A stretch of DNA of 64,000 nucleotides from contig NZ_JAHTBK010000001.1 in NCBI RefSeq assembly GCF_020177575.1, forward strand, positions 1,919,875-1,983,874, in the 5' to 3' direction. Below are positions 9,154 to 11,553 of the stretch, piece by piece; the stretch's first letter is position 1, and each line of letters opens with the position of its first letter. The notes under the pieces are model-generated. The model saw only the letters and a list, made by a program, of their open reading frames with translations, had not been told where the DNA came from and did not search any database. The translations under genes and the position numbers were made by a program. The DNA is from Hasllibacter sp. MH4015 (lineage in GTDB: Bacteria; Pseudomonadota; Alphaproteobacteria; Rhodobacterales; Rhodobacteraceae).

Positions 9154-10362
9154 TCACATAGGACGGTTTTCCGCCCGCTGCACCCCTATTGCGACAGAAA
9201 CGATGGCCAGCGCGCCCGCGCATCCCGCCCCGATCAGCGCGGGACCGATCCCGGTGATATCCGCCACCAATCCAAGGCCGAAGGCACCGATGGCGACGGT
9301 TCCGAAACCCACCATGATCCATAGGCTCATCACGCGGCCCCGCAATTCATCGGGCAGATCGGTCTGGATCGCGGCCTGGAGGCTCACCCCGCACCAGGTG
9401 GAGGTTAGGCCAGCCAGGGCCGTTGCCGCCAGCGCAAGGGGCCAGGTCGGCGCCGCCCCCATCGCGATCACCGCCCCCTGCCCGGCCAAGGCCGCGGCCC
9501 AGACCGCCAGCGGGATGCGCGCCCCCACCGCGCCCACGCCCGCAGCCTTCAGGACCGCCGAGACAAGCGCCCCGGCGCCTGCCGCCGCCGTCAGGAAGCC
9601 CAAGCCCGCCGCCCCGCGTCCGAACCCGCCATCGGCCAGGACCGGCAGCACCTCCAACGCGCCGCGGGTCGAGGTGGCGAAGATCAACGTGATCAGAAGC
9701 GCGCGCCGGATCAGCGGCGTCGCGGCGGCATGGGCAAAGCCCTGCACCAGATCCCGCCAGAACGGTGCGGCGTCACGCGGCGGCAGGTTGCGCGGTCGCA
9801 GGGCCGGCAAAACTGCCAGCATCGGCAAATAGCACAGCGCCGCGATCCACAGGGCCGTCGACCCGCCCGCCGTGGCGATGATCCAGCCCGCGAAAACCGG
9901 GGCCACCAACCGCGCGATATTGAAATTGAGCGCGGTGGCCGAGATGACGTGCTGCACCATCTCCTTGTCCACCAGCCTAGGGCCAAGGGACATGCGCAAG
10001 GGATGATGCGCGGCCGAGATCAGGCCGATCACCGCAGCCGCGACGCCAAGCCCAAATGCGCCCACGTCACGGGCGACAAATGCCATGATCGCCAGCGTCA
10101 GGGCCATGGACAGGTTCGTCACCAAAGCGCCCCGGCGAATGTCGATCCGGTCGGCCATCACCCCGAATAGCGGGCCGAACAGGATCGTGGGCAACAGGCT
10201 CAACCCCGCGACGATGCCCACCACACCCGCCGATCCCGTCCGTTCCCAGGCCAGCCACGACAAGGTGACGCGCTGGATCCAGATCGCCTGGACCGCGAAG
10301 AACACGCCGGTGAAAAACAGCCGGAACTGCCGGTCGGCAAAGGCGCCACCGGCGATCAACAC
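9154..10362 (-). CDS. MFS transporter, EntS/DUF894-like exporter
   Basis: This 402-aa protein has about twelve hydrophobic segments and the MFS loop signature GVMADRIDIRRG between helices 2 and 3. Overall it resembles the EntS-like exporters of small hydrophobic compounds, but no substrate can be inferred. The likely start is a GTG ending at base 10362; an ATG two bases upstream is out of frame. It is followed after 34 bases by mrp on the same strand, which may be cotranscribed. Confidence 0.85.
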   Translation of the reverse strand: MLIAGGAFADRQFRLFFTGVFFAVQAIWIQRVTLSWLAWERTGSAGVVGIVAGLSLLPTILFGPLFGVMADRIDIRRGALVTNLSMALTLAIMAFVARDVGAFGLGVAAAVIGLISAAHHPLRMSLGPRLVDKEMVQHVISATALNFNIARLVAPVFAGWIIATAGGSTALWIAALCYLPMLAVLPALRPRNLPPRDAAPFWRDLVQGFAHAAATPLIRRALLITLIFATSTRGALEVLPVLADGGFGRGAAGLGFLTAAAGAGALVSAVLKAAGVGAVGARIPLAVWAAALAGQGAVIAMGAAPTWPLALAATALAGLTSTWCGVSLQAAIQTDLPDELRGRVMSLWIMVGFGTVAIGAFGLGLVADITGIGPALIGAGCAGALAIVSVAIGVQRAENRPM

Positions 10363-10434
10363 ATGGTTAACCCAAGGGAATGTAACGGAAATGTGTTATG
10401 CGTTCGCTGCATAGCAGCATTTCCGCAATGGCGA

Positions 10435-10462
10435 TTGTGCATGTGCAGCATTCCCCTATCTT
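10435..10462 (+). promoter_or_regulatory. Candidate promoter for the DUF1127-sRNA unit
   Basis: TTGTGC at 10435-10440 and TATCTT at 10457-10462 are spaced by 16 bases and read toward the DUF1127 gene, implying a leader of about 90 bases. A second candidate nearer the gene, CTTGAA at 10514-10519 with CAAACC after 17 bases, has a perfect match to the -35 element described for RpoH-type sigma factors of Rhodobacter but a poor -10. The related unit in R. sphaeroides is stress-induced through RpoHI/RpoHII. Confidence 0.4.
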
Positions 10463-10558
10463 CAATGTCAACGGGCCGGCAAGAATGCCAATGCCCAACA
10501 CAATGGACGGCCGCTTGAACAGGTCAACGCGCTGTCCAAACCGTTCGATGAGGATGAT

Positions 10559-10780
10559 ATGGCATACGTAGCAGGCAACCGCACTTCCACCGTTTCTTTC
10601 GGCACCCGGATCACCGAGATGGGTGCCCATGCGGTCGAGGCGTACAGGAATTGGCGCGTTTATCGCAACACGCTCAACGAGCTGAGCGACATGAGCGCGC
10701 GGGAGATGGCCGATCTGGGCATCAACCCCACCATGATCCGGCGCATCGCGCTGGAAGCGGCTTACGGCAAGACCGCCTGA
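10559..10780 (+). CDS. Small DUF1127 protein (CcsR-associated type)
   Basis: This 73-aa protein has a C-terminal DUF1127 motif (NELSDMSAREMADLGI, then an arginine-rich IRRIA stretch). Small arginine-rich DUF1127 proteins in alphaproteobacteria are linked to stress, phosphate and carbon metabolism and to RNA-related functions, but this one's role is unknown. GAGGATGAT just before the ATG serves as ribosome binding site. The hairpins that follow match the arrangement of R. sphaeroides RSP_6037, whose mRNA 3' part is processed into CcsR sRNAs, so the gene is probably the 5' part of one transcript with them. Confidence 0.88.
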   Translation: MAYVAGNRTSTVSFGTRITEMGAHAVEAYRNWRVYRNTLNELSDMSAREMADLGINPTMIRRIALEAAYGKTA

Positions 10781-10795
10781 GCCACATCAGAGATA

Positions 10796-10867
10796 CCGAA
10801 CCTCACTCCTCCCTTCGAGGTTCGGGTCAGCGGGCTGCACCAAACCCTCCCTTCGGTCGCACCCGCT
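10796..10867 (+). ncRNA. Cuckoo/CcsR-type sRNA 1 (two anti-SD hairpins)
   Basis: Hairpin 1 pairs 10796-10804 with 10817-10825 (9 bp) and exposes CTCCTCCC at 10806-10813 in its loop. Hairpin 2 pairs 10829-10841 with 10855-10867, with one unpaired C on each side, and exposes CCCTCCC at 10845-10851. A pair of stem-loops with an anti-Shine-Dalgarno CCUCCUCCC-type loop is the defining form of the Cuckoo RNA family. It lies 16 bases after the DUF1127 stop on the same strand. Confidence 0.82.
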
Positions 10868-10898
10868 TCGACATACGGCCGCTCAAGGCCGACCCCAT

Positions 10899-10967
10899 CG
10901 GTCCCGTTCCTCCCAATTGGGGCCGTGACGACCGGCGCTCCTCCTTCTCCTCCCTTAGGAGGACGCC
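10899..10967 (+). ncRNA. Cuckoo/CcsR-type sRNA 2 (two anti-SD hairpins)
   Basis: Hairpin 3 pairs 10899-10905 with 10919-10925 (7 bp, one G-U) around a loop carrying TTCCTCCC at 10907-10914. Hairpin 4 pairs 10934-10944 with 10958-10967 (one bulged C) around CTCCTCCC at 10947-10954. The stems differ in sequence from unit 1 while the loop octamer is kept, so the loop appears to be under selection. A small extra stem, CGGCC/GGCCG at 10876-10891, lies before it. Confidence 0.8.
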
Positions 10968-10972
10968 ACCTG

Positions 10973-11060
10973 GATGCTCTCTCTCCTCCCATTGGGAGCA
11001 TCTGATTTTCGGCGGTGATGGTCCTCTCCTCCCTTGGACCGTCACCGCTTTTTTCTTTTC
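10973..11060 (+). ncRNA. Cuckoo/CcsR-type sRNA 3 with terminal Rho-independent terminator
   Basis: Hairpin 5 pairs 10973-10981 with 10994-11002 around CTCCTCCC at 10983-10990. Hairpin 6 is the strongest: 13 bp between 11012-11024 and 11036-11048 with one G-U pair, loop TCTCCTCCCTT, directly followed by TTTTTTCTTTTC at 11049-11060. This last hairpin therefore acts both as an anti-SD loop and as the terminator of the whole DUF1127-sRNA transcript. Confidence 0.83.
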
Positions 11061-11066
11061 CGGATG

Positions 11067-11519
11067 TCAGGCGCGCAGGTCTTTGGGCGATCCCATGACC
11101 ACGAAGGTCGTGATCGTGGCAACCTGCGGCAGCGCGCCCAGAATATCGGTATGAAAGCGTTTATAGGCGATCAGGTCCGCCACCTCGACCCGGAGCAGAT
11201 ATTCCACGGTGCCAGTAATGTTGTGGCACTCGCGCACCTCCTCTGCGGCGGCCACAGCCTGTTCGAACGCCTCCTGCGCGCCCTTGGTGTGCAGTCCGAG
11301 GCCCACGGTGATGTAGGCGACGAACCCGATACCCAGCTTGCCCGGGTCAAGCACCGCGCGGTAGCCACGGATCACACCCGTCGCCTCCAGCGCCTGCACA
11401 CGCCGCAAAGTGGCCGAGGGGGACAAGGCCACCTTCTCCGCCAGGTCGAGGTTCGAGATCCGGCCGTCCCGCGCCAGCACACGCAATATCTGCCGGTCTT
11501 TGTCGTCCATATTCGCCAT
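11067..11519 (-). CDS. Lrp/AsnC family transcriptional regulator
   Basis: This 150-aa regulator has an N-terminal winged-helix DNA-binding domain (about 1-60, with DRQILRVLARDGR and LSPSATLRRVQ) and a C-terminal RAM/AsnC ligand domain that usually binds an amino acid. The ATG ending at 11519 has a GAAGG about ten bases upstream; an internal ATG at 11510 is the alternative. It is divergent from a LysE-type exporter 72 bases away, the classic arrangement of a regulator that induces an amino-acid exporter. Its 3' end meets the Cuckoo-array terminator. Confidence 0.9.
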   Translation of the reverse strand: MANMDDKDRQILRVLARDGRISNLDLAEKVALSPSATLRRVQALEATGVIRGYRAVLDPGKLGIGFVAYITVGLGLHTKGAQEAFEQAVAAAEEVRECHNITGTVEYLLRVEVADLIAYKRFHTDILGALPQVATITTFVVMGSPKDLRA

Positions 11520-11553
11520 TAGTTGCAAACCTTCGCACGAAACACGGCACTTC

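Follow-up and report, generated by a model that had tools for sequence, protein, structure and literature searches.

The stretch downstream of a small DUF1127 gene in Hasllibacter sp. MH4015 contains six hairpins whose loops all include CCUCC (10796-11049), and gene and hairpins very probably form an operon of the CIN1/ccaF1-CcsR type ("cuckoo RNA"), with transcription, processing and targets predicted from sequence. The locus adds one more example to a published locus type; new here is a conserved two-box promoter site that precedes DUF1127/array genes. Coordinates refer to the window, the whole stretch of 64,000 nt that was analysed, and the features of the operon and its promoter are on the plus strand.

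The DUF1127 gene and its six-hairpin array

The open reading frame at 10559-10780 (plus strand) was assigned to DUF1127 with Pfam PF06568 (49 bits, cut-off 23.3), and no NCBIfam model was found for its product. This CcaF1-like protein of 73 aa shares 39-73% identity with the other 19 proteins of an alignment (A1). The gene is followed by a convergent Lrp/AsnC gene (11067-11528, minus strand) and is divergent from a gene for an MFS transporter (9154-10362, minus strand), with which it has the intergenic region 10363-10558 in common. Two further DUF1127 genes exist in the same genome, L001 (C1:360658-360768) and L003 (605694-605795), and no anti-SD array was found in their 3′ regions.

The first-pass annotation had described six stem-loops with differing stems and like loops downstream of the gene, which is confirmed by the fold, by the positions of the loop motif and by covariation. 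In the MFE fold of 10778-11060, which has an energy of -125.6 kcal/mol (z -8.3; none of 200 shuffles was equally low), the six hairpins are all present, and the apical loop of each, 11-13 nt long, includes CCUCC. A stricter stem finder, which missed the bulged hairpin 2, counted five hairpins, a number reached by one of 1000 dinucleotide shuffles; when it was applied to 912 sliding windows of 280 nt on both strands, one had five hairpins and the next best had three. Exact copies of CTCCTCCC start at 10806, 10947, 10983 and 11026, and these are four of the seven copies present on both strands of the window; after shuffling the window 100 times, the mean was 2.55 copies and seven were reached in two cases. 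The remaining two loops, those of hairpins 2 and 3, read AAACCCTCCCTTC and TTCCTCCCAAT.

Hairpin 1 (10796-10825, loop ACTCCTCCCTTC) and hairpin 2 (10826-10872) are separated from the others by a spacer hairpin without an anti-SD loop (10876-10891), after which come hairpins 3 (10896-10927), 4 (10934-10967, loop TCTCCTCCCTT), 5 (10972-11003, loop TCTCCTCCCATT) and 6 (11011-11059, loop TCTCCTCCCTT), all of them present in the fold. The spacer hairpin is absent from the earlier note. Hairpin 6 combines an anti-SD loop with a terminator-like structure, and the T-rich tail already noticed at this hairpin is the run TTTTTCTTTT, situated 3′ of its stem. A terminator scan placed a site within hairpin 5 and passed over hairpin 6, because the loop of the latter exceeds the limit of the scan.

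The array had also been called three-member, a claim that we do not maintain: only the first pair of hairpins is set off by a spacer, and hairpins 3-6 follow in a row without one, these four being joined by 4-7 nt. Spacers like that at 10876-10891 also occur in L009 and in Cereibacter johrii (L166), and in the latter motif-free spacer hairpins are situated between two-hairpin units. Three sRNAs are possible, or alternatively a 2 + 4 arrangement. An argument from even hairpin numbers, which would prove the pair to be the unit, was considered and dropped: MFE counts for 79 of the 80 relatives (the best 80 of 210; L194 gave no count) were even in 42 loci and odd in 37 (p 0.65).

Covariation and spread of the array

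Pairing was examined in three alignments of orthologous hairpin pairs from the genus, A2 (hairpins 5 and 6), A3 (hairpins 3 and 4) and A4 (hairpins 1 and 2); A2 and A3 comprise 11 of the 13 genus loci and A4 comprises 12 of 13, with near-identical or truncated rows omitted. Of the pairs predicted by RNAalifold, 13 of 23 in A2, 5 of 16 in A3 and 6 of 16 in A4 showed compensatory changes, the figure for A4 being 7 of 16 by an alternative count. Covariation was seen for hairpin 1 in A4, for hairpin 4 in A3 and for hairpins 5 and 6 in A2, and one of the seven pairs of hairpin 3 showed a compensatory change in A3. The covariation scores of these alignments (11, 11 and 12 sequences) were higher than in any of 500 shuffles, and sliding the partners destroyed the pairing in all three; one of five pair measures, the number of further pair types, was not above shuffles (214, 78 and 62 of 500). 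In these 11-12 sequences of the same genus the stems covary and the loops are kept, the pattern that the first-pass annotation had singled out for checking in relatives.

Loop motifs number six in seven species of the genus and eight in the other six, after motifs situated in the downstream gene (L005, L006, L010), just after the stop codon (L012) or in the spacer (L013) had been excluded by eye. The array thus shows six- and eight-hairpin forms coexisting in one genus. Counts based on the MFE fold gave 5-8 hairpins for the same 13 loci, often below the number of loop motifs. No run of five T follows the last hairpin in L015. Separately, L089 (G177) contains 18 loop motifs 3′ of its DUF1127 gene, compared with eight anti-SD hairpins in Cereibacter johrii.

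The Rfam model RF02344 (ar14), which we take to be NfeR1 of Sinorhizobium, matched 10928-11053 over its full length with 52.7 bits (E 1.3e-8; gathering score 58.8), a match that corresponds to the last three hairpins. Model RF02791 (CcsR1; gathering score 65.3) matched with E 0.0048, giving 22.8 bits at 10965-11053 and 11.8 bits at 10792-10868, and at gathering scores no Rfam model was found at the locus. In this search of the segment, which had been proposed earlier for the Cuckoo/CcsR model, both models match and both remain below their gathering scores. Across the family (one genome per genus, E 1e-3), 204 of 248 genomes had a CcsR1 match, which exceeded the cut-off in 10; this run, with strict filters and few candidates scored per genome, missed our own genome, and of the 14 control genomes it gave a below-cut-off match in one, Thermus composti. 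For ar14, 18 of 41 genomes matched, two over the cut-off, and no control did. Within our own genome, a single ar14 match was obtained at E 1e-3, with 64 of 408 candidates being scored; a model built from the genus, for which 150 of 2226 candidates were scored, produced three adjacent matches, all of them to sequences used in its training. One array was therefore found in the genome. Three weak matches of the genus model to other parts of the window, one on the minus strand at 11011-11083 with E 0.012 and two with E 0.067 and 0.81, were taken as chance.

When 61 genomes were searched for the DUF1127 protein, 32 had a match, including all 13 of the genus, our own among them, and the arrangement of a DUF1127 gene followed by an array is present in many other genera of the family. 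Together with the E values of ar14 and CcsR1 and the covariation, this arrangement upholds the earlier reading of a cuckoo/CcsR-like array 3′ of a DUF1127 gene.

Conserved promoter boxes and a candidate regulator

An alignment of the 13 upstream regions from the genus revealed two conserved blocks, which recur in other genera. Box 1 (TATGC-N7-GCATAGCAGCATT, 10397-10421, with the core GCATAGCAGCATT at 10409-10421) is conserved in the genus and in the other relatives examined, and is a candidate site for a regulator of the LsrB/VtlR type. Box 2 (TTGTGCATGTGCAGCA, 10435-10450) overlaps a presumed -35 (TTGTGC, 10435-10440), and a presumed -10 (TATCTT, 10457-10462) is situated 16 nt after TTGTGC, as judged from the genus alignment. 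A scan of 10300-11120 with the sigma-70 consensus found no promoter. From the -10 we guess a transcription start near 10469, which would place box 1 at about -60 to -48; the LsrB box in PabcR1 of S. meliloti is described at -61 to -49 (PMC8844928).

In our own genome this is the sole match to box 1 with 0 mismatches, four others having 3 mismatches (two matches in the reversed control), and the sole exact match to box 2, six others having 1 mismatch (nine matches in the reversed control). The pair of boxes was found in 78 of 80 relatives, with a start-to-start distance of 27 (27 loci) or 28 bp (51 loci), compared with 1/80 on the reverse strand, 0/80 downstream and 0/80 after letter shuffling. 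The 80 loci were the best among 210 DUF1127 relatives; some of them share a species or an assembly (e.g. two from Cereibacter johrii), and R. sphaeroides itself is not included. Cereibacter johrii, Luteovulum azotoformans and Rhodobacter capsulatus have the pair, and the two loci of the 80 that lack it are both from Marinosulfonomonas. A strict regular expression recovered the pair in 42 of 60 loci, some places being counted twice, and missed it by one base in L008 and L011. By eye, no pair was seen in the 300 nt upstream of the two other DUF1127 genes of our own genome. The two Marinosulfonomonas loci (L155 and L157) have a short array and a different upstream sequence (CTATGCGCCAGACGCATAGCGGCAATT). 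In some other genera the gene upstream of the DUF1127 gene is apparently a different one (with a Mrp-like start, by eye), and the boxes therefore appear to be tied to the DUF1127 gene and not to its neighbour.

Positions 10408-10422 agree with the 15-mer VtlR motif of Brucella (PMC12595884) at 12 of 15 positions, for which the chance expectation is 0.0045 in the region, and this level is reached four times in the whole window. Among the relatives (best 80 of 210), at least 12 of 15 positions were matched upstream in 74 of 80, against 1 of 78 downstream. Of these best 80 of 210 relatives, 16 agree in full with the published VtlR/LsrB consensus, GCAT-N3-TG-N3-T (PMC7486931), from which the window deviates by one base, with GCAT-N3-AG-N3-T (A for T).

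One of the 30 LysR proteins of the genome, P0001 (G000:C1:1380710-1381621, minus strand), stands out by its similarity to LsrB. Compared with PDB 9hh1, the LsrB of A. tumefaciens (PMC11975290), it scored 255 bits, the next protein of the genome having 104.7; it is likewise the best of the 30 LysR proteins in a comparison with LsrB (42% identity over 290 aa; 248 bits, next 133), with agreement at 49 of 66 positions of the DNA-binding (HTH) part. Among the NCBIfam matches listed, no model was above the cut-off for P0001. A P0001-like regulator is present at E 1e-60 in 242 of 248 genomes of the family (one per genus; no more than nine candidates were scored in each), twice in G240 and otherwise once, and this near universality makes its co-occurrence with the array uninformative. 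No regulator was found at E 1e-60 in G034 (85% complete), which has the boxes, or in G286 (96% complete), which has a CcsR1 match. LsrB has been called unique to Rhizobiales (PMC11975290), and VtlR/LsrB is stated to occur in many Alphaproteobacteria (PMC7486931). A response to redox conditions has been described for LsrB (PMC11975290); P0001 contains no cysteine, and thus has no cysteine-based redox sensing of the kind described for LsrB.

The neighbourhood of trxB was tried as a route to the regulator and rejected. In Agrobacterium trxB and vtlR are neighbours (PMC7486931); no LysR gene was present around trxB within L058, and a whole-genome search gave no thioredoxin-reductase match near P0001. 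In L058, trxB adjoins by eye an Lrp/AsnC-like gene instead of a LysR gene. AbcR/ar15 as an anchor was uninformative, being found in 0 of 115 genomes of the class and matching no control.

The promoter would contain a two-part LysR-type site, in which box 2 overlaps the -35 and box 1 precedes the presumed start by some 60-48 nt, and would be activated by P0001. We see about an even chance that the LsrB/VtlR-like P0001 drives these operons through the predicted binding to the boxes. A serious alternative, to which we attach a probability of around one third, is that the RNA reading is right and the boxes are read by another LysR-type or dimeric regulator, or form an unusually conserved stress-sigma promoter. 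It would fit with the sheer number of LysR genes in the genome, with the lack of cysteines in P0001, with the occurrence of CCCATNTT at the -10 position in many promoters of the family and with the attribution of the transcription of CcsR1-4 in R. sphaeroides to RpoE, RpoHI and RpoHII (PMC8307010); however, a sigma factor alone gives no account of a conserved block that precedes the -35 by 27-28 bp, the VtlR motif in the literature is similar to box 1, and no protein of the genome comes as near to LsrB as P0001, by a clear margin, besides which control by sigma factors and by a LysR protein are mutually compatible. The passages on the control of CcsR in R. sphaeroides (PMC8307010) name no LysR protein. 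Among the papers searched that contain at least three of the terms for the two systems, ccaF1/CcsR and LsrB or VtlR occur together only in PMC12501420, where LsrB appears in the title of a reference.

The promoter is the more useful result, since it offers one candidate protein and one 13-bp site for the control of the CcsR sRNAs, so far attributed to alternative stress sigma factors. In a wider proposal, with the odds evenly balanced, the LsrB/VtlR-type regulator would be a core protein of Rhodobacteraceae with the operon of DUF1127 gene and anti-SD sRNAs, including ccaF1-CcsR of R. sphaeroides, as its main conserved target. If this is true, the circuit of regulator, DUF1127 protein and sRNA would predate the split of Rhizobiales and the order of Rhodobacteraceae, and the redox cysteines would have been lost or never gained, the regulator responding to a different signal. 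A LysR-type link would join two lines of research on DUF1127 proteins.

Possible role of the RNAs and relation to known systems

In the mechanism that we propose, one promoter would serve both the gene of the small DUF1127 protein and the six stem-loops 3′ of it, the last of which would end transcription. The transcript would then be cut between hairpins, as RNase E does in R. sphaeroides, to release sRNAs of two or more hairpins, and their unpaired CUCCUCCC-type loops would pair with the Shine-Dalgarno sequences of target mRNAs and reduce translation, so that the hairpins of the array could mask the ribosome-binding sites of other mRNAs. The DUF1127 protein may affect maturation or turnover. 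Induction by stress and a part in C1 or glutathione metabolism, taken over from R. sphaeroides, are likewise predictions for our organism. DUF1127 proteins of Agrobacterium are described to work via protein contacts, with CcaF1 able to substitute there (2025, PMC12501420), and the role of the DUF1127 protein is therefore less settled than that of the RNA.

It is improbable that the loops are instead ribosome-like decoys, titrating a protein or, more generally, purine-rich leaders, and do not regulate chosen mRNAs. Six similar loops per transcript would provide a high dosage, and the loops resemble the 3′ end of 16S rRNA, which we counted in favour of such decoys. However, specific targets have been named for RNAs of this kind, namely flhR mRNA for CcsR1-4 (PMC8307010) and SMc03121/SMb20442 for NfeR1 (PMC8844928). 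More improbable still is that the hairpins are not sRNAs, serving instead as stabilisers or terminators of the DUF1127 mRNA or acting only in cis, as the terminator-like last hairpin and the position of the array close after the stop codon could indicate, since stabilisers would not need one CCUCC loop in six unrelated stems, the loop motif is conserved while the stems covary, and the related RNAs of R. sphaeroides are processed sRNAs with a named target (PMC8625941, PMC8307010, PMC7866481).

Considered as an operon of the CIN1/ccaF1-CcsR type, the locus can be compared with three known systems. It shares with the ar14 sRNA of Alphaproteobacteria (RF02344) the anti-SD loops, including that of the terminator, and differs from it in scoring below the gathering score and in that the match is part of a region 3′ of a DUF1127 gene. 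In Brucella, VtlR is a positive regulator of three DUF1127 genes (PMC12595884), and the VtlR/LsrB circuit of Brucella, Agrobacterium and Sinorhizobium, with a LysR-type activator of DUF1127 genes and sRNAs, resembles our locus in having a similar box; unlike that circuit, the window has AG for TG in the box, and its candidate regulator is cysteine-free, 42% identical and without a trxB neighbourhood.

The closest parallel is with R. sphaeroides, in which ccaF1 is co-transcribed with CcsR1-4, loci of this type having been named CIN1 (PMC10253847); the CcsRs are cut out of the ccaF1 3′ UTR by RNase E (PMC8625941), and CcaF1 is involved in the processing of CcsR1-4 (PMC8625941, PMC7866481). As in ccaF1-CcsR1-4/CIN1, the window contains a small DUF1127 gene and then tandem anti-SD hairpins in its 3′ region. 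It has six hairpins and one spacer only, whereas in Cereibacter johrii there are eight hairpins, in pairs parted by spacers; in addition, its terminator hairpin itself has an anti-SD loop, its loops read CUCCUCCC or shorter, and its score with the CcsR1 model is far under the threshold. The promoter boxes of Cereibacter johrii, which belongs to the genus of R. sphaeroides, are the same as those of the window.
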